A DNA stretch of 64,000 nucleotides from Novosphingobium sp. GTDB lineage: Bacteria > Pseudomonadota > Alphaproteobacteria > Sphingomonadales > Sphingomonadaceae. Made by a program: the position numbers and the translations under genes. Positions 4,981 to 22,515 of the stretch are shown piece by piece. Positions within the stretch are counted from its first letter, which is position 1; every line of letters begins with the position of its first letter. The stretch spans positions 1 to 64,000 of the forward strand of contig NZ_JAIEPN010000068.1 of NCBI RefSeq assembly GCF_019748365.1, read 5' to 3'. Under the pieces are notes generated by a model, which made no database searches, was not told where the DNA came from, and saw nothing but the letters and a program-made list of their open reading frames with translations.

Positions 4981-4987
4981 TCGGGGC

Positions 4988-7900
4988 ATGATCTCCCGCA
5001 TTTTCATCGATCGGCCCATCTTCGCGTGGGTCATCGCGATTGTCATCATGCTGGGCGGGCTGGGCGCGGTCTTCACCCTGCCGATCGAGCAATATCCCGA
5101 TATCGCGCCCCCTTCGGTCAATATCCGCGCCAGCTATCCGGGCGCTTCGGCCGAGACACTCGAATCCAGCGTCACGCAAGTCATCGAACAGCAGCTGACC
5201 GGCATCGATGGCCTGATCTACTTCACTTCGTCATCGAGCTCGTCCGGCTCGGCCACGATCACCGCGACCTTTGGCAAGGGCATCGATCCGGACATCGCGC
5301 AAGTGCAAGTGCAGAACAAGGTCCAGCAAGCGCTGGCCCGGCTGCCCCAGCAAGTGCAGCAGCAGGGGCTCACGGTCACCAAGGCCAGTTCCGACTTTCT
5401 GATGATCGTCACGGTCTACGATTCGACCGACCGGCTCAACAACAACGACGTCTCGGACTTCCTCGTCTCGAACCTGCAGGACCGGATCGGGCGGATCGAC
5501 GGCGTGGGCGATGTCAGCGTGTTCGGGTCGCAATATGCGATGCGCATCTGGCTCGATCCGTTCAAGCTTGCCGCGGTCAAGCTCATGCCCTCGGACGTGA
5601 CCGCCGCGATCCAGGCGCAGAATACCCAGGTTGCGGCCGGCCAGATCGGCGCGCAGCCTTCATCAAGCGAGCAGCGGCTGACGGCCACGGTCACCGCCCG
5701 TTCGCGGCTGACCACCCCCGAGGAATTCCGCAAGATCGTGCTCAAGACCCAGAGCGACGGGTCCCGCGTGCTGCTGCAGGACGTGGCGCGGATCGAGCTG
5801 GGCGCGGAAAGCTACAGCATCGTGAGCCGCTTCAACGGCCACCCGGGCGCCGGCCTTGCCGTCCAACTCGCGCCGGGCGCCGATGCGCTCAAGACAGCCG
5901 AGCTGGTCAAGGCCGAAGTTCAGGCCCGCTCGCCGACCTTCCCGGACGGGTTCAGGTTTACCTACCCGGTCGACAGCACGAAGTTCATTCGCCTCTCGGT
6001 CGAGGAAGTGGTCAAGACGCTGATCGAGGCCATCGTTCTGGTGGTCATCGTGATGTTCGTGTTTCTGCAGAGCTGGCGCGCCACGCTGATACCCGCGATC
6101 GCGGTGCCGGTTGTGCTGCTCGGCACCTTCGGCGTGCTCGCCATCGCCGGGTTCAGCATCAATACCCTGACCCTGTTCGGCATGGTGCTGTCGATCGGCC
6201 TGCTCGTCGACGATGCCATCGTGGTTGTCGAGAATGTCGAGCGGGTGATGGACGAGGAGCCCGAGATCTCGGCCCGCGATGCGACGATCAAGTCGATGGG
6301 CGAGATCCAGACAGCGCTCATTGCCATCGCCCTCGTTCTTTCCGCCGTGTTCCTCCCCATGGCGTTTTTCGGCGGTTCGGTCGGGGTGATCTACAAGCAG
6401 TTCTCGATCACCATCGTCGCCTCGATGGCGCTCTCGGTGATTGTCGCGCTGGTCCTGACCCCGGCGCTCACCTCGACCCTGCTCAAGCGCCCGGATGCCG
6501 AGGCAAGGCCGCAGACGGGCCTCGGCGCAAGGGCCGCGGTGCTGGGCGAACGCTTCAACGCCTGGTTCGCGCGCACTTCGGATCGCTACCGGGAACGCGT
6601 CGCGAAAACCATCGCGGGCGCGCGGGGGGCCATGGCCGCTTATGCCGCCATCGTCGGTCTGCTGGTGCTCGTCTTCAGCTTCCTCCCTTCGAGCTTCCTG
6701 CCGGTCGAGGATCAGGGCCGCGCCCAGCTGCAATACACGCTGCCCCCGGGCGCGACCCAGCCGCGCACCGAGGCGGCGGCGAAGATCATCCAGGACTACT
6801 TCGCCACATCGATGCGCGACGGGGTCGAGGCGGTCTACACCGTATCGGGCCAGGGCGGTGGCGGGGGCGGCGGGCAGAACGCCGGGCGCGGCTTCATCCT
6901 GCTCAAGCCGTGGGACGAGCGCACCAGCAGCGCGCTCACCTCCGATGCGATCACCAAGCGCGCCACGGCAGAGCTCGGCAAACGCTTGCGCGATGCCGAG
7001 TTCTTTGCGCTGGCGCCGCCCGCCGTGCGCGGCCTCGGCCAGTCGAACGGCTTCACCATGCAGTTCCTCAACACCGGGGGTTTGAGCCGCGCCGAGTTCA
7101 AGGCCCGGCGCGATGCTCTGGTGCAGGATGCGCAAAGCGATCCCGCACTCGCTGCCATCCGGCTCGGCACGCTGGAGGACAATCCGACGCTTGCCGTGAG
7201 CATCGACGACGAGAAGATCGGCGCGCTGGGGCTGACCTCAGCACAAGTCGACCAGACGCTCGCCACGGCATGGGGCGGCACCTATGTGAACGATTTCATC
7301 GACCGGGGCCGGGTCAAGCGCGTCTTTGTTCAGGGCGACGCGCCCTATCGCAGCCGGCCCGAAGACCTTGCCAACTGGTTCGTGCGCGGCAGCACGGGGA
7401 CCATGGCGCCCTTCTCCTCCTTCGCGAAAGTGAGCTGGGGGCAGGCGCCTTCGAACCTCTCCCGCTTCAACGCCACGCCGTCCTACCAGATCCAGGGGCA
7501 GGCGGCGCCGGGCCACAGTTCGGGCGAGGCGATGAACGCGATTGCCGCGCTGGCCGCAGGGCAGCCGGGCACCTCGGTCGCATGGTCGGACTTGTCCTAT
7601 CAGGAGCGCCTTTCGGGAAATCAGGCGCCGTTCCTTTATGCCATCTCGCTGCTGGTCGTGTTCCTGTGCCTTGCCGTGCTCTATGAAAGCTGGTCGATCC
7701 CGTTTGCGGTCATGCTGGTGATCCCCATCGGTCTGCTTGGCGCGGCGCTGGCCGTGTGGCTCCGGGGGCTCGACAACGACGTGTTCTTTCAGGTCGGCCT
7801 GCTCACCACGATGGGCCTTTCCGCCAAGAACGCGATCCTCATCATCGAATTTGCCGAGCAGGCCGAAAAGGCCGGGAAATCGGCGGTGGACGCCGCGCTC

Positions 7901-8128
7901 GAGGCCGCGCGGCTGCGGCTGCGCCCGATCATCATGACGAGCCTTGCCTTCATCTTCGGCGTCCTGCCGCTCGCAATCTCCACCGGCGCGGGGGCCAAGA
8001 GCCGGGTCGAGATCGGCACGGCCGTGATCGGCGGCATGGTCACGGCCACCGCGCTTGCCATCTTCTTCGTGCCGCTGTTCTTCGTGCTGGTCCGCCGGAT
8101 ATTCAGCCGCAGGAGCAAGCAGGCATGA
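4988..8128 (+). CDS. efflux RND transporter permease (AcrB/MexB family, HAE1)
   Basis: Proton-driven trimeric inner-membrane pump for hydrophobic and amphiphilic compounds. The 1046-residue product begins MISRIFIDRPIFAWVIAIVI, the typical first membrane helix. The proton-relay residues are visible: GLLVDDAIVVVENVERVM (two adjacent Asp in TM4) and the Lys of GLSAKNAILIIEFA in TM10. Two large periplasmic porter/docking regions sit between TM1-2 and TM7-8. A Gly-rich loop (GQGGGGGGGQNAG) in the second periplasmic half is longer than in AcrB. Substrates cannot be deduced. It follows the adaptor by 7 bases, and its TGA overlaps the next gene's ATG (ATGA), so all three pump parts are translated together. 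Confidence 0.96.
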   Translation: MISRIFIDRPIFAWVIAIVIMLGGLGAVFTLPIEQYPDIAPPSVNIRASYPGASAETLESSVTQVIEQQLTGIDGLIYFTSSSSSSGSATITATFGKGIDPDIAQVQVQNKVQQALARLPQQVQQQGLTVTKASSDFLMIVTVYDSTDRLNNNDVSDFLVSNLQDRIGRIDGVGDVSVFGSQYAMRIWLDPFKLAAVKLMPSDVTAAIQAQNTQVAAGQIGAQPSSSEQRLTATVTARSRLTTPEEFRKIVLKTQSDGSRVLLQDVARIELGAESYSIVSRFNGHPGAGLAVQLAPGADALKTAELVKAEVQARSPTFPDGFRFTYPVDSTKFIRLSVEEVVKTLIEAIVLVVIVMFVFLQSWRATLIPAIAVPVVLLGTFGVLAIAGFSINTLTLFGMVLSIGLLVDDAIVVVENVERVMDEEPEISARDATIKSMGEIQTALIAIALVLSAVFLPMAFFGGSVGVIYKQFSITIVASMALSVIVALVLTPALTSTLLKRPDAEARPQTGLGARAAVLGERFNAWFARTSDRYRERVAKTIAGARGAMAAYAAIVGLLVLVFSFLPSSFLPVEDQGRAQLQYTLPPGATQPRTEAAAKIIQDYFATSMRDGVEAVYTVSGQGGGGGGGQNAGRGFILLKPWDERTSSALTSDAITKRATAELGKRLRDAEFFALAPPAVRGLGQSNGFTMQFLNTGGLSRAEFKARRDALVQDAQSDPALAAIRLGTLEDNPTLAVSIDDEKIGALGLTSAQVDQTLATAWGGTYVNDFIDRGRVKRVFVQGDAPYRSRPEDLANWFVRGSTGTMAPFSSFAKVSWGQAPSNLSRFNATPSYQIQGQAAPGHSSGEAMNAIAALAAGQPGTSVAWSDLSYQERLSGNQAPFLYAISLLVVFLCLAVLYESWSIPFAVMLVIPIGLLGAALAVWLRGLDNDVFFQVGLLTTMGLSAKNAILIIEFAEQAEKAGKSAVDAALEAARLRLRPIIMTSLAFIFGVLPLAISTGAGAKSRVEIGTAVIGGMVTATALAIFFVPLFFVLVRRIFSRRSKQA

Positions 8129-9591
8129 GGCGCCCTGTGTCCCTCCAGCTGGTTGCGCTGCTCCCGGGCCTGCTCGGCGCCTGCAGTCTTCAGCCGAAAT
8201 ATGTGCGGCCCGATCCGGCCATTCCCGCAGGCTGGCGGATCGCTGACCCTGCCTTGCTCGCGAGCGAGAGCGATCTGGCCTCCCTCGGCTACCAAGCGGT
8301 GTTCCGGGATTCCCGGCTGCAGGCGCTGATCGGGCGCGGCCTAGAAAACAGCCAGAACCTGAAGGCAGCCGTGGCCAATGTCGCCGCCGCGCGCGGGCTC
8401 TACCGGGTCCAGCGGGCGGCGCTGCTTCCCGCGATCAACGGAACAGCGGCGGCCAGCGCCGTTGAGAACGGCAACGGCAACTTTTTCAATGGCGGTGCTG
8501 GCGGCGGTGCCGGCGGCGGGGCAGGCTCCGGCGGCCCGCGGGAGAATTACAGCGTCAATATCGGCGCATCGGCGTTCGAACTCGATCTGTTCGGGCGGCT
8601 GCGCAGCCTGAGCGATGCCCAGCTCAACGCCTACTTCGCCACCGAACAGGCCGCCCGCGCGACCCGGCTGACCCTGGCCGCCGACATTGCCGATGTCTAC
8701 TTCACGCTCGCCGCCGACCGCAGCCTGCTGGCGATCGCCCGGCAGACCGCGGCCAGCGCGCAGCGCAGCGTTGCCCTGACCAAGGCGCGGCTTTCCGGTG
8801 GTATCGCCCCCCGCACCGATCTGCGTCAGGCCGAAACGATCGAGGCGACCGCGCGTTCGGATGTGGCGAACCTGACGACCATCGTCGAGCAGGACCGCAA
8901 CGCGCTCGAGCTGCTGATCGGTGGCCCCGTCGCCGATAGCGAACTGCCCGCCGCGATCGAGAGCGTCGACGGCGCAGTCGGGCCGGTTCCGGTCGAGCTT
9001 TCATCGAGCATCCTGCTTCGCCGCCCGGACGTGGTGGAGGCCGAATACCAGCTGCGGGCCGCCAATGCTCGCATCGGTGCCGCCCGCGCCGCGTTCTTCC
9101 CGCGCATATCGCTGACCGCAACCGGCGGGCTTGCGAGTTCGGCGCTGTCCGCCCTCTTCACCGGCGGCGCGTTTGCCTACAACGCGGGCGCTTCGGCCAG
9201 CATCCCGATCTTCGCCGGTGGGGCCAACAGCGGCAATCTCGCGGCCGCGCGGGCGCAGGCGCAAGCCGCAATGGCGACCTACCAGCGCGCGATCCAGCTC
9301 GCTTTCCGCGACGTTTCGGACGCCCTTGCGCGGCGGGCGACGATTGCCGATCAGATCGCCGCGCAGACCGCGCTGGAGGCAGCGGCCCGCGATACAGCCT
9401 ATCTGACCACCGAGCGGTACAAGGGCGGCGTCGCGTCGTTCCTCGAAAGCCTTGATGCGCAGCGGTCGCTCTATGCGGCGCGACGCTCGCTGATCAGCAC
9501 GCGGCTGCTGCGGGCGAGCAATATGGTCGCGCTCTATCGCGCGCTGGGCGGTGACGATTTTTCCGGTACGGCGCTGTCTGCGCGGCCCTGA
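8125..9591 (+). CDS. efflux transporter outer membrane factor, NodT family lipoprotein
   Basis: Outer-membrane channel of the tripartite pump (OprM/TolC-like), 488 residues. The signal ends in a lipobox (LLGAC) near residue 20, followed by LQPKYVRPDP, the usual NodT/OprM start. Two repeated outer-membrane-factor halves follow, with NIGASAFELDLFGRLRSLSD before the first and ASASIPIFAGGANSGNL in the second, and the long helical barrel segments between. A Gly/Asn-rich insertion lies at about residues 113-137. The start overlaps the pump stop by four bases. The gene ends shortly before the convergent qhpE gene. Confidence 0.94.
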   Translation: MRRPVSLQLVALLPGLLGACSLQPKYVRPDPAIPAGWRIADPALLASESDLASLGYQAVFRDSRLQALIGRGLENSQNLKAAVANVAAARGLYRVQRAALLPAINGTAAASAVENGNGNFFNGGAGGGAGGGAGSGGPRENYSVNIGASAFELDLFGRLRSLSDAQLNAYFATEQAARATRLTLAADIADVYFTLAADRSLLAIARQTAASAQRSVALTKARLSGGIAPRTDLRQAETIEATARSDVANLTTIVEQDRNALELLIGGPVADSELPAAIESVDGAVGPVPVELSSSILLRRPDVVEAEYQLRAANARIGAARAAFFPRISLTATGGLASSALSALFTGGAFAYNAGASASIPIFAGGANSGNLAAARAQAQAAMATYQRAIQLAFRDVSDALARRATIADQIAAQTALEAAARDTAYLTTERYKGGVASFLESLDAQRSLYAARRSLISTRLLRASNMVALYRALGGDDFSGTALSARP

Positions 9592-9613
9592 AATCGGCGA
9601 GTCGGCCCGCTTT

Positions 9614-10261
9614 TCATCGACTTGCGGCTGGATTCGGGCTGACCGGTAGCAGGTTGGCGGCGGCAAGGCCGGTGACTTGCGCCGTCGCAAAGCTGATGCC
9701 GTGGAGGTTGCGCTGCTGCGGCACCCCCTCGATCGGGCGCGGATAGCCTGAGGCGTGGTAGACGCCGTCGTCCGCCAGCCGGACCGACCCGCGCGCCACG
9801 TCCCAATCGAGCCCCACCGCGATGATGCCCGCCAGCATGCCGGGCCAGCAGGGCGCGTCATCTGCTGCCGTTCGCGGTGCGACGATGCGCGCGGTGCTGC
9901 GGGCCACCGCCGCTGCAAAATGATCGGCATGCGCGGGATTGGTGGTGCCAAGGCTGAGATTGATGAAATCGGCGCCCTCGGCGCTCGCCCAGTCCATCGC
10001 GGCGATCAGCGCGCGCGGCGAGGCGCGCAAGGCATCGCGGAATACCCGGATCGGCAGGATCAGCGCCCGTGGGGCCAGTTCCTGAATCGCGGCGGTAACG
10101 GCAGTCCCATGGCCGACCCGGTCGAGCGCCGCGTTCGCGCCTTGCTCCGGCGTCCCATCGGGGAGGATCGTCACGCCGGGCAGCAGGCGGCTGGCGGCGA
10201 TATGCGGATGGCCGGGATGCACGCCGCTGTCGATCACGGCAATACGCACGGGATCAGCCAC
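9614..10261 (-). CDS. qhpE: subtilisin-like serine protease, QHNDH gamma-subunit leader peptidase QhpE
   Basis: Last gene of the quinohemoprotein amine dehydrogenase operon. QhpE is the S8-family protease known to remove the leader of the cross-linked gamma subunit in the cytoplasm before export. In this 215-residue protein the triad is visible: Asp11 (AVIDSG), His51 (RVGHGTAV) and Ser190 (GISFATAQVTG). It has no signal peptide or propeptide, so it is smaller than secreted subtilisins. The usual Asn-Gly oxyanion segment is not obvious. I chose the GTG at 10261 because GGAAGG sits nine bases upstream; an ATG at 10279, slightly inside qhpF, has no ribosome-binding site. Overlap with qhpF shows co-translation. 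Confidence 0.88.
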   Translation of the reverse strand: MADPVRIAVIDSGVHPGHPHIAASRLLPGVTILPDGTPEQGANAALDRVGHGTAVTAAIQELAPRALILPIRVFRDALRASPRALIAAMDWASAEGADFINLSLGTTNPAHADHFAAAVARSTARIVAPRTAADDAPCWPGMLAGIIAVGLDWDVARGSVRLADDGVYHASGYPRPIEGVPQQRNLHGISFATAQVTGLAAANLLPVSPNPAASR

Positions 10262-11942
10262 GCAGATTCGCCTTCCCATCGGTCAAGGTCACCACCATGT
10301 CAGCGCCTTCGGTCAGTGCGGGGCGGTGGGTGATCACGATCAGCGTGGCATCGGGCAGAGCTTCGCGCAATCCTTCGGCGACACGCTGTTCGGTAGCCGC
10401 ATCAAGTGCGGCGGTGGGTTCATCGAGCACCAGCACCGATGGCCGCCGCAGCAGCGCGCGGGCAATCGCGATGCGCTGACGTTCGCCGGCGGACAGCGAG
10501 AGGCCGCGCTCGCCAACCGGGGTCTGCAATCCCTGCGGCAGGCGCTGGAGCAGGGGGCCAAGCCCGGCGGCTTCGGCGGCGGCCTGCACGTCTGCGGTGG
10601 TCGCACTTTCCAGCGCGAAGGCGATGTTGGCGGCGATCGTCGCGTTGAACAGGAACGGTGCCTGATCGACCAGCAGCACTTCGCGGCGCAGATCGGCAAG
10701 CGCCAGATCGCGGATATCCGCCCCGTCGATGGTGATGCGCCCTGCCTGCGGGTCCTGCAGCCGGACCAGCAGATCGGCCATGGTCGATTTGCCCGCGCCG
10801 CTTTCGCCGAGCACCGCGCAATGCGCGCCCGCCGGAATGACGAGATCGACGCCGTCCAGCACCGCCTCACGGTCATGCCGGAAATGCACGCCTTCGAAGC
10901 GGATCGCGCCGCGTACCGGGCCCATGGGCAGCGGATCGGCGCGCTGGATCACTTCGGGCGCGGTATCGAACAGCTCGAAAATGCGGCCCAGCGAGACGCG
11001 GGTGGAGGCAAGCCCCGACGAGAGCCCCAGCAGGGCCTGCACCGGCGCGAAGAGGCGCGCATGATAGGCCATGAACGCGACCAGCGTGCCGATGGTAAGC
11101 TCGCCCGAGAAGACGCGCCAGCCGCCATAGAGCGTGACGGCGGCGGTCGAGATCGCCAGCAGCGCGCCGGGGAGGGCACCGGTCAGGAACGAGGCGACCT
11201 GCATGCGCAGCATGGTCTCGACAAAGCGGCCATTGGCTTCGCCGAAGCGGGACAGTTCGTGCCGCTCGGCGCCGAGCGCGCTGACGACACGCATGCCCAT
11301 CACCGTATCGACCAGCAGACTGCCGAGATCGGCCCCGCGCTCGCGCATCTCGCGCGTGATCTCGACCAGCCGTCGCTGCAGCCGCACGAAGGCGAGCACG
11401 GCGAGCGGCACCAGCACCGTGCCCACCAGAAACAGGCGCCAATCGAGCCAGAGCATCAGCACCACGCTGCCGATCAGGAACAGCACATTGCCCAGCGCCG
11501 CGAGCAGCGTATCGGCGGCGGCGCGCTGCACATCGCTGTCATCGCTGTTGATCCGGCTCATCAGATCGCCCAGCCGAAACCGGGCGTAGAAGCGCGGGCT
11601 CAGCATCTGCAGGTGGCGCAGCAGATCGACGCGGATATCGAACAGCATCGCCGCGGAGATCTTCACGTACCGGTAGCTGGAAGCGATATTCAGCGCGTAG
11701 CCGCCCAGCGTCACCCCGATTGTTGCTACCGCGATCCACCCCAGCGCCGCGAGATTGTGCCCGAGCAGCGCCTCATCGATCATCAGCTTTGAAAGGTAGG
11801 GCTGCGCCAGCGTGACCGCCGTCGCCATGAGACTGAGCGCGAGCACGAACAGCAGGCGGCCGCGATAGGGCAGGATGTAGGGCACGAGCCGGCGATAGGT
11901 GTGCCACTGCGCGACCGGTGGGGCGGGGTGGGCGCTGCTCAT
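10254..11942 (-). CDS. qhpF: ABC transporter (permease-ATPase fusion) of the QHNDH operon, QhpF
   Basis: A half-size ABC exporter of 562 residues: a six-helix membrane domain (about residues 20-310) and a nucleotide-binding domain. The latter shows Walker A (GESGAGKST), the signature region LSAGERQRIAIARALL, Walker B (VLVLDEPT) and the H-loop (VITHRPAL). In known qhp operons this protein is thought to export the matured gamma subunit, which lacks a Sec signal, to the periplasm. The ATG at 11942 overlaps the qhpG stop (ATGA); an open frame extends upstream but lies inside qhpG. Its own stop overlaps the start of qhpE. Family membership is certain; the substrate is inferred from the operon. Confidence 0.9.
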   Translation of the reverse strand: MSSAHPAPPVAQWHTYRRLVPYILPYRGRLLFVLALSLMATAVTLAQPYLSKLMIDEALLGHNLAALGWIAVATIGVTLGGYALNIASSYRYVKISAAMLFDIRVDLLRHLQMLSPRFYARFRLGDLMSRINSDDSDVQRAAADTLLAALGNVLFLIGSVVLMLWLDWRLFLVGTVLVPLAVLAFVRLQRRLVEITREMRERGADLGSLLVDTVMGMRVVSALGAERHELSRFGEANGRFVETMLRMQVASFLTGALPGALLAISTAAVTLYGGWRVFSGELTIGTLVAFMAYHARLFAPVQALLGLSSGLASTRVSLGRIFELFDTAPEVIQRADPLPMGPVRGAIRFEGVHFRHDREAVLDGVDLVIPAGAHCAVLGESGAGKSTMADLLVRLQDPQAGRITIDGADIRDLALADLRREVLLVDQAPFLFNATIAANIAFALESATTADVQAAAEAAGLGPLLQRLPQGLQTPVGERGLSLSAGERQRIAIARALLRRPSVLVLDEPTAALDAATEQRVAEGLREALPDATLIVITHRPALTEGADMVVTLTDGKANLRG

Positions 11943-12946
11943 GCCGGGACGCTGCGCGGGACGAGGCGGCTGCCGGTGAGCACGAAAGCAGGCTCCGGCT
12001 CCACCGCGAGCTGGCTGGTGCACCAGGCATGGCCCTCGGCGGTTACCCGCGCCTGTTCCTGCCACCACGCCCCCGAACCGCCGCGCTGATAGAACGGCAG
12101 GCACGCCGCGAGATGGCGGCGCAGCGCGGCGATCAGCATCGCGCGGTAGTGGCGCAGCAGCGGCGCGGGGTCCTCGCCCGCCGCAACTGCGCTGGCGGCG
12201 GCGCCTGCCAGAATGCCGCCGCGCGCGGCCATCGCGGTACCGTCGCCGCAGAGCGGATCGAAAGCCAGCGCGGCGGAGCCGAGCACCAGCCAGTCGTCCC
12301 CGACCAGCCGCTCCAGCACGCGCGGTGCCGTCTCGAACCGGGCCTCGACTGCGCCAAGCGCGGCAATCGCCGGCGCCACGAGGCGGCTTGCGGCCAAGAG
12401 CGCCTCCGGAGCATCGCCCACCGCCAGCAGCCACGCGTGATCCTCGCCCAGCGGGATCAGAAACAGCCAGCCCGCCGCCACCGCCTCAACCAGCACGGCC
12501 GCAGCATCGGCGCCCGGTGCCAGGGTGACAGGCGCCGCCGCAGCCTCACGCCGTCCGAAGCGATGCAGGGCAGGGCCCGGCGCGTGGGCGTGGAGCGTGA
12601 AGCGCGCCGGTGCGGGTAGGGGGCAATCCGTGGCAAAAGGCAGCGCGCCGAGCAGGTCCATGCCGGACACGGCCCAGGCCCGATGCGGGATCGCCACCGG
12701 CTCGGCCTCGTTCCATAGCACGATGCGCCGCGTGATCCGGTGCGATCCGGTGACGCGGCCCGCGCCGAACAGGCTGTCCAGCAGATGCAGCGCCTGCTCG
12801 CCCAGCATGACAACGGGCGCTGCGCCGCGCTGCGGGCCTTGTTCTGCGGAGAAACCGGAACCATTCTCGGCCAGCACCGCCTGTGCGGCTGCCACGCCAA
12901 CCCCGCGCCCCATGACATGCACGGACGACCGCCCGGCGGCGGTCAT
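11939..12946 (-). CDS. qhpG: FAD-dependent monooxygenase QhpG, quinone cofactor maturation
   Basis: Flavin-dependent monooxygenase-like protein of 335 residues. Near the N-terminus a Rossmann dinucleotide motif is seen (VHVMGRGVGVAAAQAVLA), and near the C-terminus FDPLCGDGTAMAARGG matches the second FAD-contact motif of the tryptophan-halogenase/geranylgeranyl-reductase-like group. In characterised qhp operons QhpG hydroxylates the gamma-subunit tryptophan that becomes the CTQ quinone, and its position here fits that role. The ATG at 12946 lies 10 bases after the qhpB stop; the stop overlaps qhpF by four bases. Here it sits between qhpB and qhpF. Sequence similarity is modest, so the call relies on the operon. 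Confidence 0.82.
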   Translation of the reverse strand: MTAAGRSSVHVMGRGVGVAAAQAVLAENGSGFSAEQGPQRGAAPVVMLGEQALHLLDSLFGAGRVTGSHRITRRIVLWNEAEPVAIPHRAWAVSGMDLLGALPFATDCPLPAPARFTLHAHAPGPALHRFGRREAAAAPVTLAPGADAAAVLVEAVAAGWLFLIPLGEDHAWLLAVGDAPEALLAASRLVAPAIAALGAVEARFETAPRVLERLVGDDWLVLGSAALAFDPLCGDGTAMAARGGILAGAAASAVAAGEDPAPLLRHYRAMLIAALRRHLAACLPFYQRGGSGAWWQEQARVTAEGHAWCTSQLAVEPEPAFVLTGSRLVPRSVPA

Positions 12947-12956
12947 GCAGCCGGTC

Positions 12957-14063
12957 TCACTTGAGGACCAGCATTCCGGCCATGGTTGCGTCGGCACCGA
13001 GATCCCAGGTCTTTTCCAGCTTCATGGTCTGCGCGTCATAGACCTCGATATCGTAGCTCGCACCGTAGATATAGAGCTTGGTACCATCGCCGGACATGCC
13101 GAGCTGGAAGCGCGAGCGGCAGGCGAACTCGACCTTGTCCTTGAGCTTGAGGCTGGTCATGTCGAACTTCCAGAACTCGCAGCGCTTGTTGCCGGTCTGG
13201 CCGTTGGTGACGACGGTGTAGCCGGTCTTGCCATCGGGCGTGATTTCAAGGCCGGACATGCCGGTGGTGATCGGCCCCATCGGCGTGAACTTGAACTTGC
13301 GCGTGTTGAGATCGAACTTGCCGAGACCGAAAACCTTGTTGTGCACATAGGGATCGGCGGCGGTGAACAGCGAGACAAGCTCGCCCGCATTGGTCATCTG
13401 AAAGGATTCGACGCCGCCGCCGAAGGCGACGTTTTCATAGCCGGTGGATTCGGGCTTCTGCACATCGATGCGGTCCACCACCTTGAGCTTGGCGGTATCG
13501 ACCAGCAGCACCTTGTCCTTGAACAGGTAGAGCGTCTTGCCATCGGGCGAGACCATCATCGGCGCGCGCCAGCCGCCGCTCAGCGCATCATCCTCGGGCT
13601 CGAGATCGGCGGTGCGCACCACTTTCCCGAGCTTGGTGTCGATCACCGCATACATCTGCTTGCTGACCTTCCAGCGGTCGATCAGCTTTTCCATGCGCAG
13701 CATCGTGGTGTAGAAATAGCGCCCGGTCGGATCGGGGGCGCCGCCGTTGAAGCGGTAGCGCGTTGTCGGCGTGTTGAGATCGAACTGGGTCGTGATGGTG
13801 CGGGACTTCGCGTCCATCACGATCACGCTGCTGTTGGTGATCGTCGTTGCGAAGATCTTCGCCTGATCAGGGGTGATCCGCAGCGAGACGGGGAGGCCGC
13901 CCGGTAGCTGGATCTTCTCGCCTATCTTGCCCGTCGCTTCATCGACCGTGAACAGCTTGTCCGGGTACGTGCCGAGCATCAAGGTGCCGGCCATGGCGGG
14001 CATGCTGGCGGCAAGGGCAAGGGCTGCGGTGCCGAGAACGGCCTTGCGGGCAAGCGTGATCAT
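12957..14063 (-). CDS. qhpB: quinohemoprotein amine dehydrogenase, beta subunit
   Basis: Periplasmic beta subunit (368 residues) of quinohemoprotein amine dehydrogenase. A Sec signal peptide (ALALAASMPAMA then GTL) precedes a seven-bladed beta-propeller of the YVTN-like type, visible as repeated blades such as RITPDQAKIFATTI, MVSPDGKTLYLFKD and EITPDGKTGYTVVT. In the known enzyme the beta propeller packs on the diheme alpha subunit and contributes to the pocket around the CTQ cofactor of the gamma subunit. AAGGGA lies nine bases before the ATG. The gene starts 45 bases after qhpC and is followed 10 bases later by qhpG. Confidence 0.92.
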   Translation of the reverse strand: MITLARKAVLGTAALALAASMPAMAGTLMLGTYPDKLFTVDEATGKIGEKIQLPGGLPVSLRITPDQAKIFATTITNSSVIVMDAKSRTITTQFDLNTPTTRYRFNGGAPDPTGRYFYTTMLRMEKLIDRWKVSKQMYAVIDTKLGKVVRTADLEPEDDALSGGWRAPMMVSPDGKTLYLFKDKVLLVDTAKLKVVDRIDVQKPESTGYENVAFGGGVESFQMTNAGELVSLFTAADPYVHNKVFGLGKFDLNTRKFKFTPMGPITTGMSGLEITPDGKTGYTVVTNGQTGNKRCEFWKFDMTSLKLKDKVEFACRSRFQLGMSGDGTKLYIYGASYDIEVYDAQTMKLEKTWDLGADATMAGMLVLK

Positions 14064-14108
14064 GCGAAAAGTCCCTTTGCAGTTCAGCAGCGCAGGCGGG
14101 CCGGATTC

Positions 14109-14438
14109 TTACGGGAAGACGATATCAAGGTTGCGCCAGTCCTTCGTCGCCGCCGCGCAGTTGCTGGCCCAGTCCGCCGAATAGTTGACATGGTCGGCCA
14201 TCTGCACCGGCCAGAAGCAGGTGACGTAACAGTCATAGATGTCGCGCTCGGCCGGCTGGCACAGGCCCGCCGTGCCGCCCGTGGCATCGACTTCCCAGCC
14301 CGGCGAGAACGAGAGCGAGCAGCCCAGCGGCACATGCGGACGCGGGGTCTGCTGCAGCGCGACGACATCCTCTTCCATCGAGGCCATGTCGGCCTCGATC
14401 TTGTGCGCCTTGGCGTTGAGCGGTTTCAGGTGCTTCAT
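14109..14438 (-). CDS. qhpC: quinohemoprotein amine dehydrogenase, gamma subunit precursor (CTQ-bearing peptide)
   Basis: This 109-residue peptide carries the catalytic quinone of the enzyme. A charged leader of about 30 residues, not a Sec signal, precedes the core from Cys40. The core contains PGWEVDATGG and DWRNLDIVFP, as in characterised gamma subunits. In mature numbering (Cys40 = C7) all modified residues are present: C7/E16, C27/D33 and C41/D49 for the Cys-acid thioether cross-links, and C37/W43 for cysteine tryptophylquinone. The ATG at 14438 overlaps the qhpD stop (ATGA), tying substrate to maturase. QhpD should form the cross-links, QhpG oxidise the Trp, QhpE cut the leader and QhpF export it. 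Confidence 0.95.
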   Translation of the reverse strand: MKHLKPLNAKAHKIEADMASMEEDVVALQQTPRPHVPLGCSLSFSPGWEVDATGGTAGLCQPAERDIYDCYVTCFWPVQMADHVNYSADWASNCAAATKDWRNLDIVFP

Positions 14439-15889
14439 GACAAGCCCTTTCGTTCGGCGAAACGTGTGAGAAATTCGGGATTGCGCTGGGCGAGCGCGCC
14501 GTAGATCTGCAGGCAGCGGTCGGTCCACTGGCGGATCCAGTCGCAGTAATGCAGGTTGGCATGGCCGGTATCGCCATAGCGGACGAAGGCTTCGTGGTGG
14601 CAGCCCCCGGCGCACATCGGGCGCGCCCAGCAGGTGCCGCATTCATATTTGGAGGCGACATGGCCGCGGGTGAGGAAGTCCTCGCGCTTGGTCTGGTCGA
14701 GCCCGGTATCGATATGGCCCAGCGTATGCGTATCGGCATCGGTGAAGCGGTGGCACGGCGAAAGATCGCCCGAGGGGCTCACGCCGAGGAGGCCGAGACC
14801 CGCGCCGCAGGGGTGCGACTTGTTGGTGCCCGCGATCAGTTCCGAAATGGTCTCCGAAACGTTGGTGAAGCCGTGGACCTTGCCTTGCAGCGCATAGTCC
14901 AGCCATTCGTCCGCCAGCGCTTCGAAATCGGCCAGAACGCCTGCCATGGCATCGCCATTGAGCGAATAATCGCGCTCCTCGGCGGTGGTGACGGGGGCGA
15001 AGCCGACTTCGTGGAAGCCGATATCGTGCTTCAAGTGCTGGTAGATGCGCTTCACGTCGGTCACCCCGGCGCTCAGCGTGACGCGCGCGGTGACGGCGCG
15101 GGTCTTGTGCCCGGCGATCAGCTTGCGCAGGCGCGGCTCCATCACCGCATAGCTGCCCTTGCCGTTCTTGTAGACGCGGCGGGCATCCTGCAACTCGGGC
15201 GGGCCGTCCATCGAGACGGTGACGCCGATCGCATGGTCCGAAAGGAAGGCGATGATCTCGTCTGTCAGCAGCGTGGCGTTGGTGGTCAGGCTGTAGGTGA
15301 TGCGCTTGCCTGCCGCCGCCGCCGCTTCATCGGCATAGAGCACGACATCGCGCAGCAGGCGGAAGTTCATCAGCGTCTCGCCGCCGAAGAAAGTGATGTG
15401 CACCGCCTCGCGCCGATCCGCGCTGCGCAGCAGAAAATCGACCGAGGACTTTGCCGTCTCCAGCGACATGTACTTCGGCTTGCCCGCCGGGGTCGCGATC
15501 TTGTCCGCGCCGAATTCGTAGCAATAGGTGCACGCGAGGTTGCACTGGTTGGTGACGTTGAGCACCAGCGCCTGAAGCGGATAGTCCGCCGGGGGCGCGG
15601 CGGGCATCAGCGCGTGACGAACCTGCGTAGACTCGATGGCCCGCGCCAGCCGCAGCTCGCGCACCAGTTCCTCGGCATCGGTGGCGGAAATGCCATCGGC
15701 GACCAGCGCGCGGACCAGATCGTCGTGATCCAGCTCGCCATGCTGCCCCAGCAGATCGAGCACCTTGCGGGTCATCTCGTCGGCCGCGAAGATCGCCCCT
15801 GCCGTGACAAGATAGATGAAGTCCGCGCCCTGCGCCCGGAACTCGTGGATTTCGCCGCTGCGATAGCGGTGGTTGAGGGTCGTGGTCAC
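14435..15889 (-). CDS. qhpD: radical SAM/SPASM peptide maturase QhpD
   Basis: QhpD forms the intrapeptidyl Cys-to-Asp/Glu thioether bonds of the gamma subunit. The 484-residue protein starts with a PqqD-like peptide-recognition region (about residues 5-85). The radical SAM core follows with CNLACTYC (about residues 116-123), then a SPASM C-terminal domain with the auxiliary-cluster cysteines (HPCGAG, LSPCHRF, YECGTCWARPMCAGGC). The frame is open from a GTG at 15913, but the GTG at 15889 overlaps the qhpA stop (GTGA) and has a G-rich Shine-Dalgarno-like run upstream, so I use it. Members of this group modify small RiPP-like substrates; here the substrate is the adjacent qhpC product. Confidence 0.94.
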   Translation of the reverse strand: MTTTLNHRYRSGEIHEFRAQGADFIYLVTAGAIFAADEMTRKVLDLLGQHGELDHDDLVRALVADGISATDAEELVRELRLARAIESTQVRHALMPAAPPADYPLQALVLNVTNQCNLACTYCYEFGADKIATPAGKPKYMSLETAKSSVDFLLRSADRREAVHITFFGGETLMNFRLLRDVVLYADEAAAAAGKRITYSLTTNATLLTDEIIAFLSDHAIGVTVSMDGPPELQDARRVYKNGKGSYAVMEPRLRKLIAGHKTRAVTARVTLSAGVTDVKRIYQHLKHDIGFHEVGFAPVTTAEERDYSLNGDAMAGVLADFEALADEWLDYALQGKVHGFTNVSETISELIAGTNKSHPCGAGLGLLGVSPSGDLSPCHRFTDADTHTLGHIDTGLDQTKREDFLTRGHVASKYECGTCWARPMCAGGCHHEAFVRYGDTGHANLHYCDWIRQWTDRCLQIYGALAQRNPEFLTRFAERKGLS

Positions 15890-17733
15890 TGCGATACCCC
15901 CGGATTGTCCCACCGCTTGTAGGCGGGCACCGTCACGACAAGGTAGGAACGCGCCGTCAGCGGCTGGCCGGTCGCATCCTTCTCGTCCTTCGCGGTCGCC
16001 ACCACCCAGACATCGCCGTAGTTGTTGCGATTGCCGCTGCGCTCGGGGTTCGGTCCGTCGCTTGCGGGGGTGAAGAAGCCGGTCGGCGTGAGCTTGCCGA
16101 CGAAGTCCTTGTCGTCGTCATAATAGGTCGCCTGGAATTCCTCGATGTGGAACTCGGCGGGCACCACGCCGACCTTGACGTCATCCGCAGTGTTGGGCTT
16201 GCCATCGGCGCCCGCGTCAAAGCCCCAGGCTTCGAACTGCGCGTAGCCCGGCGTGCGCTTGCCCGAACCCAGCCGCGAAATCCCGGTTTCTGGGCTGACC
16301 TTGAGGTAGGCAATTTTCTGGTAGACGGGCAGGGCATTGGCCAGCACCGCCGAGCCGACCGAGACATCGTGCACCGCAGGCTTCACGTCCGCCGCTGTAT
16401 CGACCGTGACGACGACTTCACCGGGCGCGGCCGAAACCAGCTTGGTCACGGTGATCCCGCTGCCCAGATCGACGTCCTTTGCCGTCAGCCCCGCCGGGAA
16501 GGCGTCGCCATAGATGTGCACCGTCTGCGCCTTGCTGCCGCCCTTGATCGAAGCGGGCCAGACCGCGCCGATCACCGGGCTGCCGTCGGCGCGGGTCAGC
16601 GTCACGTCGTAGCCGAATTCCTGATAATCGCCCCAGAACCAGCGGCCCGACGCACTGCGGCGGTCCGTGCCGAACATCATCGTGCTGCGCAGCGGCTGGT
16701 TGAAGGCATTGGGTGCGGTGGGGGCCGCTGCCGGTACCGACCGTCCGCGCCAGGCATAGCCGCCATAGACGAGCCCGCCGCCCGGTGCGCTGAGCACATC
16801 GCCATCGGCCAGGTTCTTCAGTGCGGTTTCGGTCTTGAACTCGCCCTCCGCAGCGCCCGGCGCTACGGTGAAGGTGCCGTAGAACAGGCCCTTGCCCGGC
16901 AGCCATGCGCTTGCCAGCCACTTGCCGGCAAGGCGCGGCGCCTGCTTGCGGCCTTCCCACGCGGTCCATTCCGGCGTCTTGAGCGGGGCAACCTTGCGCA
17001 GATACTCCAGTGCCACTTGTCCCGCTGTCACCGGGATCATGCCAGGCTTGTTCACGATCGGCTCGGTCTGGCCGAACACCGCGCCGGGGCGGTCTACCGC
17101 CGGGCGGCGATACTGGGCATCGGCCTGCGAATAGAGTGCGACGTGGAATTCCTGCAGGTTCTTCCATTCCGCCGCCGAACGCCGCCAAGATAGCGGCTGG
17201 GCAAAGGCGTGGCAGGCGGCGCAGCTGGTGCGCACGGATTCGCTCGGAATATTGGTTTCGTCGATCACCCGCTTCTCGACGAGGTATTGGACCGGCTTCG
17301 CTTCTTCGGGCGCAAGGCCATGCGTATCGGCGAGGTAGCGCACGATATGGCGCGCTTCTTCGGGTGTGAGCACAGCCCCGTTGAGCCGGACCATGCGCTT
17401 GATGGCCGAATCCCAGCCTTCGGGCGTAGTGCGGACCCACGAGATGCGCGAGAGATTGCCCTTGTCGTCCGCCGTGTGGCACGCGCCGCACTTCTCGCGG
17501 GTGAGGGCATCGGTCACCGGGATGCCGTCTTCCTTCTCGATCCCCTCGTCAGCGGGGAGGCCGGCCTGACCGATCACCGCCGAGGCGGAAAACAGGCTGG
17601 CCGCGCCAAACAGCAGCGCGGCGGTCAGGCGGCGAAGGATCGGGCTGCGGGACGAAGGCGCTGGCGGCGCAGGCGAGGCGAGGTCATGGCCGAGGGCCTG
17701 GAATGCATCGTCTGCCGCGCCTGGAACGTCCAT
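15886..17733 (-). CDS. qhpA: quinohemoprotein amine dehydrogenase, alpha subunit (diheme)
   Basis: Periplasmic diheme subunit (615 residues) of the enzyme, which oxidatively deaminates primary amines to aldehydes and passes electrons to a periplasmic carrier. Two c-type haem sites are visible: CGACH at residues 82-86 and CAACH at 171-175. They lie in an N-terminal cytochrome region followed by beta-rich Ig-like domains. The signal peptide core (LTAALLFGAASLFSASAVIG) sits unusually far in, at about residues 36-55, after a 35-residue Pro/Ser-rich extension; no later start codon fits, so the ATG at 17733 stands, with AGGGGG upstream. It is the first gene of the operon, and a GTACA-N2-TGTAC repeat lies about 60 bases upstream. 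Confidence 0.93.
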   Translation of the reverse strand: MDVPGAADDAFQALGHDLASPAPPAPSSRSPILRRLTAALLFGAASLFSASAVIGQAGLPADEGIEKEDGIPVTDALTREKCGACHTADDKGNLSRISWVRTTPEGWDSAIKRMVRLNGAVLTPEEARHIVRYLADTHGLAPEEAKPVQYLVEKRVIDETNIPSESVRTSCAACHAFAQPLSWRRSAAEWKNLQEFHVALYSQADAQYRRPAVDRPGAVFGQTEPIVNKPGMIPVTAGQVALEYLRKVAPLKTPEWTAWEGRKQAPRLAGKWLASAWLPGKGLFYGTFTVAPGAAEGEFKTETALKNLADGDVLSAPGGGLVYGGYAWRGRSVPAAAPTAPNAFNQPLRSTMMFGTDRRSASGRWFWGDYQEFGYDVTLTRADGSPVIGAVWPASIKGGSKAQTVHIYGDAFPAGLTAKDVDLGSGITVTKLVSAAPGEVVVTVDTAADVKPAVHDVSVGSAVLANALPVYQKIAYLKVSPETGISRLGSGKRTPGYAQFEAWGFDAGADGKPNTADDVKVGVVPAEFHIEEFQATYYDDDKDFVGKLTPTGFFTPASDGPNPERSGNRNNYGDVWVVATAKDEKDATGQPLTARSYLVVTVPAYKRWDNPGVSQ

Positions 17734-17791
17734 CTGCGTAAAGCCCCCTGAAGAATTATCCCCGTTACCCCTCCGGCACGACTCGAATTCT

Positions 17792-17803
17792 GTACAACTG
17801 TAC
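17792..17803. promoter_or_regulatory. inverted repeat GTACA-N2-TGTAC upstream of qhpA, candidate operator
   Basis: A 12-base inverted repeat, two 5-base arms with a two-base centre, lies in the 144-base gap between the iorB stop and the qhpA start, 59 bases before the ATG. The location suits control of the qhp operon. Known qhp operons have an AraC-type regulator gene (qhpR), which is not in this window. AraC proteins normally bind direct rather than inverted repeats, so this could equally belong to another regulator or be chance. Confidence 0.3.
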
Positions 17804-17877
17804 GGGATTGGTCAATCGTTAACTTGCGCCATTTTGTGCGTTTGCGAAGATTCGTTTTGCCCCGCGAAAAATGCTGT

Positions 17878-20070
17878 TCAGGCCAGTTGCAGCGGGAGGC
17901 TGCGCAGGCGCTTGCCGGTCGCGGCGCGGATCGCGTTCGCAACCGCGGGAATGACCGGGGGCAGCGTCGGCTCGCCAAGTCCGGTCGGCGGATAGTCGTT
18001 CTTGACCCAGCTGATCGCAATCTCGGCGGGCTTGGCATCCATGCGCAGCAGCGGGAAATCGCTGAACGTCACCGTCTGCACCGCGCCCGCTTCCTGCACC
18101 ACCGGCTGCCAGACCAGCGCCTGCGCCAGCCCGTCGATCGCCGCGCCCTGCGCCTGGTGCTCGGCGTTCAGGGGATTGATGATCTGCGAACCGATGTCGC
18201 CCGCGATCCACACCTTGTCGACCTTCACCGCCCCGTCCGTAACGGTCACGTCGACCACTTCGGCGAAGTAGCCACGGTGGCTGAAATAGAAGCCGAACCC
18301 GCGGCCCTTGCCGGGCACTGCCGAGGGCTTGCCCGTCCAGCCCGCAAAGGCCACCACGCGCTCGATCACCGCACGCGCGCGGGCCGTGCTGAACACCACG
18401 GTAGGGCGTTCGGTCGGCAGATCGCGCGGGGCGCCCAAAGTGCGCAGCATCAGCGCGGGAAGGTCGGTTCCCGCCGCCTCGGCCACTTCGTCCATGAAGC
18501 TCTGGTAGACAAACGCCATCGCGTTCGAGGTCGGCGCGCGCAGCCAGCCGGTGGTGAGGTTGGTCGTCAGGAATGATTGCGCCAGATGGGTATCGGGCAC
18601 GACCGAGGCGGGAAACTCCGATGCCGGCATGTCCGCCGCGCGGATCGCCTTGCCGTTCGCGCCGAAGGTCACGAAGTGGTCCTTGAACGCCACCAGCGCG
18701 CCGCTCGCATCGATCCCGGCAGTGAACCGGTGCCAGCCACCGGGCCGGTAATAGTCGTTGCGCATGTCGTCGGTGCGGTCGAACAGCAGCTTGACCGGAC
18801 GGCCCGGCACGGCCTTCGCGATCTGTCCGGCCATCACCATGTAGTCGTTCATCAGCCGCCGGCCGAACCCGCCGCCGATCCGCGTCATGTGGATGGTGAT
18901 CGCCTCGGGCGCGATGCCCATCATCGCCGCCACATCCTTGCGGCCATTGCCGGGGTTCTGCGTCGGCGCCCAGAATTCGACCGTCCCGCCTTCATGCCAC
19001 AGCGCCGTGCAGTTCTGCGGCTCGAGCGTGGCGTGGGCGAGGAAGGGATAGCTGTAATCGCCGGTGACGACCTTGGCCGCCTTGGCAAGGGCGGCATCGG
19101 CATCGCCCGCCTTGAACAAGGTGGCATCGGGCGCCTTGCCCAGCGCTTCGGCGGCCTGCCTGGCATAGAGTTCGGTCGAAAAACCCTGCTGCGCGGCGAT
19201 GTCCCACTGCACCACCAGCTTGTCGCGCAGCTTCTGCACCGCCCACCACGATGTGCCGACAATCGCCACCGCATCCTGCTTGCCCGCCGGGCACTGGCCG
19301 CTGCTGATCGGCACCACCGCGACGACGCCGCGCGCGGACTTGACCGCGCTGTCGTCATAGCTGGCCAGCGTGCCGCCGATTGCCGGGCACTTCACCATCG
19401 CGGCATGCAGCAGCCCCGGCAGCCGCGTATCGATCCCGAACAAGGGCTCCCCGCGCACGATCTTCGGCGTATCGACACCCTTTTTCGGCGTGCCGATGAT
19501 GTGGAATTCGTTCGGCTTCTTGAGCGGCACTTTGGCGAGATCGGGCGCCGGCTGCGCGGCGGCCGCCTTGGCCAGCGAGGCATAGGTCGCGCTGCGGCCC
19601 CCGGCCTTGTCGACGACGCGCCCGCCGGCGGTGGTCAAACTCGCGGCGTCGACCTTCCACTGCGCCGCCGCGGCGCTAACCAGCATCGCCCGCGCCGCCG
19701 CCCCCGCCTGCCGCGCGGGCAGCCAGTTCATCGGCGTCGCGGTGCTGCCACCGGCGACCTGCGGGCCATAGAGCTTCTCGTTGGCATCGGTCTGCTCGAT
19801 CTTCACCTGCTCCCAGCTCACATCGAGCTCGTCGGCCAGCAGCATCGGCAGCATCGTCTTGATGCCCTGGCCGATTTCCGGGTTCTTCGCCCCGATGATC
19901 ACGCTGTTGTCCGGCAGGATGCGGATGAACGCGTTGAGCATGGTCGCTTCCGCCACGCCCGGACCCGCCGCCAGCGCGATCTTCGCCTCGAACGTCAGCG
20001 CCGCACCCGCCGCGAGCGAGGCCGCGATGAACGAGCGGCGGTCGATCCCCTTGGTCCGGTCCCGGTTCAT
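17878..20070 (-). CDS. xanthine dehydrogenase family molybdopterin-binding subunit (isoquinoline 1-oxidoreductase large-subunit type)
   Basis: Large catalytic subunit (730 residues) of a two-subunit molybdenum hydroxylase of the IorB type. Such enzymes hydroxylate N-heterocycles or oxidise aldehydes with water as oxygen donor. The N-terminus has a twin-arginine signal (DRRSFIAASLAAGAALTFEA), so the folded cofactor-loaded protein should go to the periplasm by Tat. Molybdopterin-domain motifs include IGAKNPEIGQGIKTMLPML and IGGGFGRRLMNDYMVMAGQ. The ATG at 20070 overlaps the stop of the iron-sulfur subunit gene (ATGA). No third cytochrome c subunit is adjacent. The qhp operon follows on the same strand after 144 bases. 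The substrate is unknown. Confidence 0.92.
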   Translation of the reverse strand: MNRDRTKGIDRRSFIAASLAAGAALTFEAKIALAAGPGVAEATMLNAFIRILPDNSVIIGAKNPEIGQGIKTMLPMLLADELDVSWEQVKIEQTDANEKLYGPQVAGGSTATPMNWLPARQAGAAARAMLVSAAAAQWKVDAASLTTAGGRVVDKAGGRSATYASLAKAAAAQPAPDLAKVPLKKPNEFHIIGTPKKGVDTPKIVRGEPLFGIDTRLPGLLHAAMVKCPAIGGTLASYDDSAVKSARGVVAVVPISSGQCPAGKQDAVAIVGTSWWAVQKLRDKLVVQWDIAAQQGFSTELYARQAAEALGKAPDATLFKAGDADAALAKAAKVVTGDYSYPFLAHATLEPQNCTALWHEGGTVEFWAPTQNPGNGRKDVAAMMGIAPEAITIHMTRIGGGFGRRLMNDYMVMAGQIAKAVPGRPVKLLFDRTDDMRNDYYRPGGWHRFTAGIDASGALVAFKDHFVTFGANGKAIRAADMPASEFPASVVPDTHLAQSFLTTNLTTGWLRAPTSNAMAFVYQSFMDEVAEAAGTDLPALMLRTLGAPRDLPTERPTVVFSTARARAVIERVVAFAGWTGKPSAVPGKGRGFGFYFSHRGYFAEVVDVTVTDGAVKVDKVWIAGDIGSQIINPLNAEHQAQGAAIDGLAQALVWQPVVQEAGAVQTVTFSDFPLLRMDAKPAEIAISWVKNDYPPTGLGEPTLPPVIPAVANAIRAATGKRLRSLPLQLA

Positions 20071-20534
20071 GCTTTCGTCTCCAGCCCGGCGGCTTCGCGG
20101 ATGGCCCGCTCGATCCGCACATAGGTCGCGCAGCGGCAGATATTGCCGTTCATGCCGAGCAGGATGTCTTCCGCGCTCGGCTTCGGGTTCGCGGTCAGCA
20201 GCGCGGTGGCCGACATGATCTGCCCGGCCTGGCAATAGCCGCACTGCGGCACGTCGATCCTGGTCCAGGCCTCGACCACCTTCTGCCCGGCCGGCAGCGC
20301 GGTCACACCCTCGATCGTGGTGATCTGCTTGCCCGCCGCTTCGGAAATGAGGGTCTGGCACGAGCGGACCGCCTGACCATCGAGCAGGACGGTGCACGCC
20401 CCGCAGAGGCCCGCACCGCAGCCGAACTTGGTGCCCGGCATGTCCAGATCCTCGCGCAGGACCCACAGCAGCGGCTTGTCGGCATCGGCGTCCACGCTCC
20501 GTTTGCGGCGATTGACGGTCAGGACCATGGACAT
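20067..20534 (-). CDS. (2Fe-2S)-binding small subunit of the molybdenum hydroxylase (IorA type)
   Basis: A 155-residue electron-transfer subunit with two [2Fe-2S] clusters. The plant-ferredoxin-type cluster uses Cys39, Cys44, Cys47 ([13 protein letters not shown]) and Cys59. The second, in the C-terminal four-helix domain, uses QCGYCQAGQ and NICRCATYVRI. It takes electrons from the Mo centre of the large subunit. The frame is open from a TTG at 20540, but the ATG at 20534 has GGAG seven bases upstream and is preferred. It has no signal of its own; it would ride with the Tat-exported large subunit. Confidence 0.93.
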   Translation of the reverse strand: MSMVLTVNRRKRSVDADADKPLLWVLREDLDMPGTKFGCGAGLCGACTVLLDGQAVRSCQTLISEAAGKQITTIEGVTALPAGQKVVEAWTRIDVPQCGYCQAGQIMSATALLTANPKPSAEDILLGMNGNICRCATYVRIERAIREAAGLETKA

Positions 20535-20792
20535 AGGCAAACTCCGATTCGGCGAGCGTGCGGGGAGGCAGCGCCTCGGCGAAGTGAAATCTGAACAGTC
20601 TTCAAGGATTGCGTCAAGCGCTGAGGGTGGGGGGCTGTTTGCGGCGCTCTTGCTGGCAGGTTACGACCAATGTCGGTCAGTCACACCCGACCCAATGAGC
20701 GCCCGGTGCTCCTCTTAGCCGCAATTCCTCTTAGAGATAGTGCATCGACCGGGCACATAGCGGTCTTCAAGCGTGCCACTGTAGCCTCGAAG

Positions 20793-22259: not shown

Positions 22260-22515
22260 GATCAAGATATTCCAAGAATGAAGTGAATGTGGAGGTACGA
22301 GCGGTCTTGCACGCGCCTACCATTTACCCGCTAATGGATACGGAAATCTGCGTTACGTAAAAACCTGAGGTTCGGCGATCCGCTTTGAAAAACTTCAGCC
22401 TAGCGCGAACGTTGCTATCAAATGCCCGCTCCAAGCCGACGATCTGTGAGGAGGGTTCGACAGAAGATGCCTGCTGAGTGGCAAATCCTGCAACTCGGTT
22501 TTTGCAGAGTTGCCC

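Follow-up and report, generated by a model that had tools for sequence, protein, structure and literature searches.

The window analysed here is a stretch of 64,000 nucleotides, positions 1 to 64,000 of the forward strand of contig NZ_JAIEPN010000068.1 from Novosphingobium sp. (assembly GCF_019748365.1; genome of 4.55 Mb in 208 contigs), and it contains a qhp operon for a probable quinohemoprotein amine dehydrogenase (QHNDH). Seven intact open reading frames lie on the minus strand at positions 9614-17733. They correspond to three subunit genes and four maturation genes in the order qhpA-D-C-B-G-F-E, and the complete set of seven proposed in an initial annotation of this DNA was thus recovered. 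Overlapping stop and start codons, described there for most junctions, are found at four of the six: A/D, D/C (ATGA), G/F (ATGA), and F/E (26 bases). The other two junctions are gaps of 45 bases (C/B) and 10 bases (B/G). The assignment of these seven genes to a qhp system is far beyond chance.

Profile searches gave a graded picture, as only QhpA, QhpD, and QhpC pass the cut-offs of their family models. The qhpA gene (17733-15886) encodes an alpha subunit of 615 amino acids with a putative signal peptide, preceded by an N-terminal extension, and two haem c motifs of the CxxCH type (CGACH and CAACH). All cysteines of this protein, at positions 82, 85, 171, and 174, belong to the haem sites. QhpA scores 563.5 bits against TIGR03908 (cut-off 274), contains four Pfam domains of the QHNDH alpha subunit, and matches the solved structure 1jmx_A (E = 1.4e-64). 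The qhpC gene (14438-14109) encodes the gamma subunit precursor of 109 amino acids, which scores 136.8 bits against NF037958 (cut-off 50) and matches the solved structure 1jju_C (E = 5.2e-21). The qhpD gene (15913-14435), with an alternative GTG start at 15889 (GTGA overlapping the qhpA stop), encodes a maturase of the radical S-adenosylmethionine (SAM)/SPASM type with 658.5 bits against TIGR03906 (cut-off 453). Its second-best NCBIfam model is that of the PapB family of ranthipeptide maturases, of which PapB forms Cys-Asp bonds (PMC8172795). Unlike its own equivalog cut-off, which QhpD exceeds by 205 bits, the cut-off for PapB is not passed (276.5 bits, cut-off 340).

The remaining proteins were identified by their best family matches. 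QhpB (14063-12957) is a divergent beta-propeller subunit with 65.7 bits against TIGR03907, and its best solved match is the QHNDH beta chain 1jju_B (E = 8e-6). QhpE (10279-9614) is a subtilisin-like leader protease that matches PF00082 and scores 157 bits against NF049966. QhpF (11942-10254) is an exporter of the ATP-binding cassette type with membrane and ATPase domains (PF00664, PF00005) and resembles MsbA-type models. The gene between qhpB and qhpF (12946-11939) encodes a compact, QhpG-like protein of 335 amino acids with a predicted flavoprotein monooxygenase fold.

Phylogeny, gene order, and distribution

Related loci were found with patterns taken from the window's own QhpD; 80 of the 88 relatives were kept, and the set therefore leans toward the window's type. 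Rows duplicating the window or classical loci were excluded from the counts, as were L074 and L078 where the gene was cut. In a FastTree phylogeny of 97 QhpD sequences, 88 sequences of the window's type are separated from 9 classical ones by a branch of 1.6 substitutions per site with a support of 1.0, and the QhpC alignment splits in the same way. Herein, the classical form, similar to that of Pseudomonas and Paracoccus, is referred to as type I, and the form found in the window as type II; both names were coined in this analysis. Its sequences place the window operon in a second type of qhp system, deeply separated from the first. No description of type II, of a compact QhpG, or of a fifth QhpC cysteine was found in the titles and abstract openings listed by searches of the open-access literature, where the Pseudomonas/Paracoccus type is the sole characterised form of this cofactor pathway that was found.

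Like the systems of Pseudomonas putida and Paracoccus denitrificans (1JMX and 1JJU), the window operon encodes three subunits and four maturation proteins, two haem c sites in QhpA, and an identical spacing of the QhpC residues that form the cross-links and the cysteine tryptophylquinone (CTQ) cofactor. It differs from these systems in the long QhpD branch, in QhpB and QhpG scores under the cut-offs, in an added Cys61 and a Trp42 to Phe replacement in QhpC, and in the order of genes.

The order A-D-C-B-G-F-E is the rule in the related loci, being found in 70 of 80. Eight shorter loci are truncated by contig ends (L002, L003, L006, L034, L061, L064, L074, and L078), and two, L076 and L077, differ. 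In L077, which belongs to a metagenome-assembled genome (MAG) of Terriglobia, the genes are ordered A, C, B, D, with G, E, and F on the opposite strand; a second QhpA-like frame was found in this locus at 16153-17835. In the classical operons inspected, the genes for the hydroxylase, the protease, and the exporter are placed otherwise, and the arrangement of qhp genes is stated to be variable (PMC7876137). The position of qhpG between qhpB and qhpF, singled out in the initial annotation, is thus the norm of the lineage, and gene order was ruled out as the novelty of this operon.

The genome had also been described as sphingomonad-like, which agrees with the distribution of the closest relatives. 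The nearest four full-length loci, with 91-94% identity in QhpD, were found in MAGs of Sphingomonadaceae and in Novosphingobium. Within the genus, 54 of 195 genomes, among them that of the window, carry the qhpC gene. The type II lineage additionally includes Sphingobium, Sphingomonas, Acetobacter, Komagataeibacter, and Phenylobacterium. In even samples, qhpC was found in 7 of 398 genomes of the phylum and 7 of 385 genomes of the class, with the window's own counted in each; the other qhpC-bearing genomes of these samples are classical where they were read (L126 was missed by the pattern). One genome, G304, carries qhpC twice, at a distance of about 30 kb (L098 and L099).

The gamma subunit and its fifth cysteine

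The three cross-link pairs of QhpC and its CTQ residues are named in PMC8172795. All of them are retained in type II, since the eight residues Cys7/Glu16, Cys27/Asp33, Cys41/Asp49, and Cys37/Trp43 were found in 88 of 88 aligned type II rows, and they are invariant in both types. In addition, a fifth cysteine, Cys61 (residue 94 of the window precursor), was found in all 88 type II rows, 71 of them distinct. This residue is present in none of 15 type I chains, namely 7 aligned rows, 3 plasmid operons, and 5 of the 6 operons of the class sample. A wider set consisted of the best 120 of 1197 QhpC homologues together with the window protein, and it likewise leans toward the window's type. In this set, Cys61 was found in 121 of 121 sequences; at position 42, 118 sequences have Phe and 3 have Tyr. 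Type II is further marked by Phe42 instead of Trp42 and Asp36 instead of Gly, each in 88 of 88 rows.

Cys61 is accompanied by Asp67 in every sequence of both sets (88 of 88 and 121 of 121), and the spacing of these residues equals that of Cys27 and Asp33. However, Asp67 is also present in 12 of the 15 type I chains, all without Cys61. Asp67 may therefore be conserved for another reason, and the Cys61-Asp67 bond is treated here as hypothetical; a fourth thioether was not accepted as fact. The AlphaFold model of QhpC, made for the chain without the first Met, has a mean predicted local distance difference test (pLDDT) score of 46 and was too poor to use.

Another possible partner of Cys61 lies in the beta subunit. 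Type II QhpB contains two extra cysteines, at positions 295 and 315, each found in 86 of 88 rows, and a disulfide bond between Cys61 and one of them could clamp the gamma and beta subunits together. All three cysteines are in subunits expected to be periplasmic, which speaks for such a clamp. On the other hand, the two QhpB cysteines could pair with each other, in which case Cys61 has no obvious partner; an intersubunit bond would leave one of the three unpaired; and QhpA offers no cysteine beyond its haem sites. The clamp is thus considered rather unlikely, and any role of Cys61 is putative. In QhpD, ten cysteine columns are invariant in both types. Near the C-terminus of this protein, Cys467 was found in 84 of 87 type II sequences, while Gly occupies this position in six of six type I sequences.

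The compact QhpG and the proposed maturation route

The identity of the window's QhpG as given in the initial annotation holds with respect to the best family match and the predicted fold, but it is not a standard hydroxylase, lacking the winged helix and key side chains. Against the hydroxylase model NF049967, it scores 47.4 bits, under the cut-off of 240, with the match covering residues 139-332 only; QhpG from six of six type I genomes scores 407-588 bits. No Pfam family was matched at an E-value of 0.001. The model for GoxB matches residues 206-287 only (25.6 bits), far under its cut-off of 400; GoxB and LodB are flavoproteins needed for CTQ formation in other enzymes, during maturation of glycine and lysine oxidases (PMC7876137). 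The genome contains 25 other weak matches to NF049967, none above the cut-off, and a classical QhpG encoded elsewhere was thus ruled out.

The AlphaFold model of the compact protein has a flavin monooxygenase fold (mean pLDDT 92.4, predicted template modelling score 0.91), and its best Foldseek match is the peptidyl tryptophan dihydroxylase QhpG, 7ctq (E = 3.9e-16). A search for relatives gave 149 database matches. Among the 120 listed, most are 330-350 residues long, the genus, where one is given, is Novosphingobium, and the few source names are mostly "hypothetical protein". From these 120, 80 rows were chosen for an alignment with six type I sequences; residues are numbered as in 7CTQ. Compact QhpG has about 335 residues in comparison with 432. 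In 7CTQ, the winged-helix domain comprises residues 349-429 (PMC7876137). A median of 49 residues (43-70) follows Tyr323 in compact QhpG as against 104-112 in type I, so the winged-helix domain is absent; the C-terminus is predicted to form a helix and two short strands. The stretch between Arg89 and Trp181 is also shorter, with a median of 66 residues (62-118) versus 88-97 in type I, or about 30 fewer than in 7CTQ.

The substrate channel and Pro267 on the re-face of the flavin are preserved in the compact proteins. Arg70, Val72, Trp74, Trp181, Pro267, Gly270, and Arg314 are kept in 80 of 80 rows, Phe322 and the loop glycines 10 and 12 in 79, and Arg36 in 61. Other positions are consistently replaced: Glu84 by Ala or Gly, Asp260 mostly by Ser or Thr, and Asn271 by Asp in all 80 rows, and Ser269 by Cys in 79.

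Of all genes compared with the three nearest loci, qhpG is the least similar (62-78% identity, as against 91-95% for qhpD), as might be expected if it were a truncated remnant in a decaying operon. Nevertheless, the ratio of nonsynonymous to synonymous substitution rates (dN/dS) of qhpG against L002, L004, and L005 is 0.16, 0.21, and 0.27, respectively, and the gene was found in 75 of 75 loci having both qhpB and qhpF. The low dN/dS and this constant presence indicate that qhpG is a maintained gene. Together with its conservation across genera, in 80 aligned homologues of similar length, they make decay extremely improbable, and it was ruled out.

We consider it probable that the window contains a complete type II operon for a likely periplasmic amine dehydrogenase, in which QhpD and a compact QhpG without the winged helix are predicted to generate the tryptophylquinone. 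Every reaction in this route, as well as the binding of flavin adenine dinucleotide (FAD), we infer from the counterparts in P. putida and P. denitrificans. QhpD would cross-link the QhpC precursor (Cys7-Glu16, Cys27-Asp33, and Cys41-Asp49), and compact QhpG would dock onto the resulting QhpC-QhpD complex. Acting as an FAD monooxygenase, it would add two oxygens to Trp43 through the retained Arg70/Trp74/Arg314 channel. The pocket wall left missing without the winged helix would likely be provided by QhpD, since a ternary QhpC-QhpD-QhpG complex has been reported for P. putida (PMC7876137). Subsequently, QhpE would cut off the leader, QhpF would export the chain, and QhpA and QhpB would join QhpC in the periplasm. 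Amines would be oxidised there to aldehydes and these, likely by a neighbouring molybdenum aldehyde dehydrogenase, to acids.

Several observations weigh against this interpretation. Although they are best family matches, the QhpB score lies under its cut-off of 223.2 and the QhpE score just short of its cut-off of 165. In compact QhpG, Glu42 is replaced by Val, Ile, or Leu and Trp183 by Phe in 80 of 80 rows, and Arg47 is replaced in 79; the window protein has Val, Gln, and Phe at positions 42, 47, and 183, respectively. In P. putida QhpG, substitution of Glu42, Trp183, Arg47, Arg70, or Arg314 caused a near-complete loss of activity and/or a lower affinity for QhpC (PMC7876137), and of these five residues only Arg70 and Arg314 are kept. 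Arg89, which contacts the FAD diphosphate, is replaced in all 80 rows, mostly by Gly or Glu, and Arg240 of the si-face lid aligns to a gap in all of them. FAD binding by compact QhpG is consequently not assured. Since the winged helix and most lid and FAD-contact side chains are absent, the published activity of QhpG cannot simply be transferred to the compact protein. Furthermore, no regulator of the qhpR type or otherwise responsive to amines was found among the flanking genes scanned (4913-9591 and 17878-22265). Finally, L076, from a gammaproteobacterial MAG, has the genes A-D-C-B with no match to G, F, or E in the next 3.2 kb. The QhpC of L076 carries Cys61, and its missing G, F, and E genes may lie elsewhere.

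These replacements could also mean that compact QhpG is a pseudoenzyme, a non-catalytic scaffold holding the cross-linked QhpC for QhpD or the exporter. Trp43 would then receive its oxygens from another enzyme or in an autocatalytic reaction, as is believed to happen in the first hydroxylation step of methylamine dehydrogenase and of LodA/GoxA. In addition to the losses at Glu42, Arg47, Arg89, and Arg240 and of the winged helix, this explanation is favoured by the weak matches to the hydroxylase model elsewhere in the genome and by the additional role of QhpG in promoting the QhpD reaction in P. putida (PMC7876137). However, a scaffold does not account for the invariant channel residues, the invariant re-face stretch around Pro267, or the first two loop glycines, and no other hydroxylase gene was seen within the operon. 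A scaffold role for compact QhpG is accordingly regarded as improbable. Alternatively, the operon may be an ordinary QHNDH operon that diverged without any change in chemistry, with Cys61 being a buried structural residue. The seven genes, the cross-link residues, and the fold are all alike, so this explanation has some merit; but the absence of a whole domain and the consistent replacements at important residues exceed drift, and a cysteine invariant in type II is missing from all classical chains examined. We regard simple divergence as possible, though on the unlikely side.

The predicted route through a compact, catalytic QhpG is thus preferred. In its boldest form, type II would represent a second CTQ route, present in sphingomonads, acetic acid bacteria, and an acidobacterial lineage. 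Here, Cys61 would serve as a fifth anchor, for example through a fourth Cys-Asp bond made to Asp67 by QhpD. Trp43 would be hydroxylated by a minimal flavoprotein that has a re-face cysteine, lacks the winged helix and the Glu42/Arg240 lid, and closes its active site only on binding of QhpD and QhpC. This extended proposal is speculative, and we hold it doubtful as a whole.

The points of interest are a naturally minimal, predicted tryptophan hydroxylase and the fifth cysteine of the gamma subunit. A conserved hydroxylase without the domain and the key residues would reveal those features of the published mechanism that cannot hold universally, and compact QhpG may offer a smaller protein for structural study of the conversion of Trp to a quinone. 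Because compact QhpG scores far under the cut-off of the curated model and the few source names of its relatives are mostly "hypothetical protein", automatic annotation may make such operons appear incomplete even though no gene is missing. The annotation tryptophan 7-halogenase was met at two other loci: in a Bradyrhizobium plasmid (NZ_CP088279.1, 125526-126803), a QhpD match spans genes annotated as radical SAM protein and tryptophan 7-halogenase, and in Leisingera (NZ_CP081085.1, 34629-35987), a likely QhpG beside peaA is annotated as tryptophan 7-halogenase.

Flanking genes

Genes for a molybdenum enzyme, omitted from the initial annotation, are located 144 bases upstream of qhpA on the same strand. 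The molybdopterin-binding large subunit of a predicted aldehyde dehydrogenase (17878-20070, minus strand; PF02738/PF20256) has a signal similar to those of twin-arginine translocation (RRSFIAAS). Its best solved relative, found with the frame 17878-20085, is 8gy3_C, "large subunit of aldehyde dehydrogenase" (E = 6.6e-63, residues 11-733). The [2Fe-2S] small subunit of the same dehydrogenase is encoded at 20067-20540 on the minus strand (PF01799/PF00111). Of the related loci, 71 extend for more than 3 kb upstream of qhpA, and a relative of the large subunit was found in 30 of these. It lies upstream of qhpA in 26 cases, 14 of them on the same strand and within 210 bases.

This dehydrogenase is likely to take the next step, oxidising the aldehyde product. 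In type I loci of Paracoccus pantotrophus and Leisingera, a gene of the aldehyde dehydrogenase family and an AraC or helix-turn-helix regulator were found, in contrast to the molybdenum aldehyde dehydrogenase of the window. The presence of a molybdenum enzyme here and of an aldehyde dehydrogenase family gene in type I suggests an aldehyde product and, hence, amine oxidation. The use of primary amines, as initially annotated, can be fairly inferred, and it is strengthened by the adjoining dehydrogenase; the pair of enzymes suggests a periplasmic route from amine to acid.

A promoter-like site, TTGACC-17-CAGAAT, is located between the molybdenum enzyme genes and qhpA (17787-17815, minus strand). 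It is a consensus match only; three such matches were found in 9300-21000 versus 1.1 expected. The spacer and the -10 element contain the repeat GTACAG-TT-GTACAG. A conserved upstream operator was rejected, because TGTACA was found within 400 bases upstream of qhpA in just 5 of 73 loci, which is too few.

Upstream of the molybdenum enzyme, a methyl-accepting chemotaxis protein with a PAS domain is encoded at 20793-22265 on the minus strand. Downstream of qhpE, a tetratricopeptide repeat (TPR)-sulfotransferase (L010:16397-18430) and a TonB-dependent receptor (L010:18615-21476) were found in 38 related loci each. In the window, their place is taken by an efflux pump of the resistance-nodulation-division multidrug type with a NodT-type outer membrane channel, encoded at 4913-9591 on the plus strand and convergent with qhpE.

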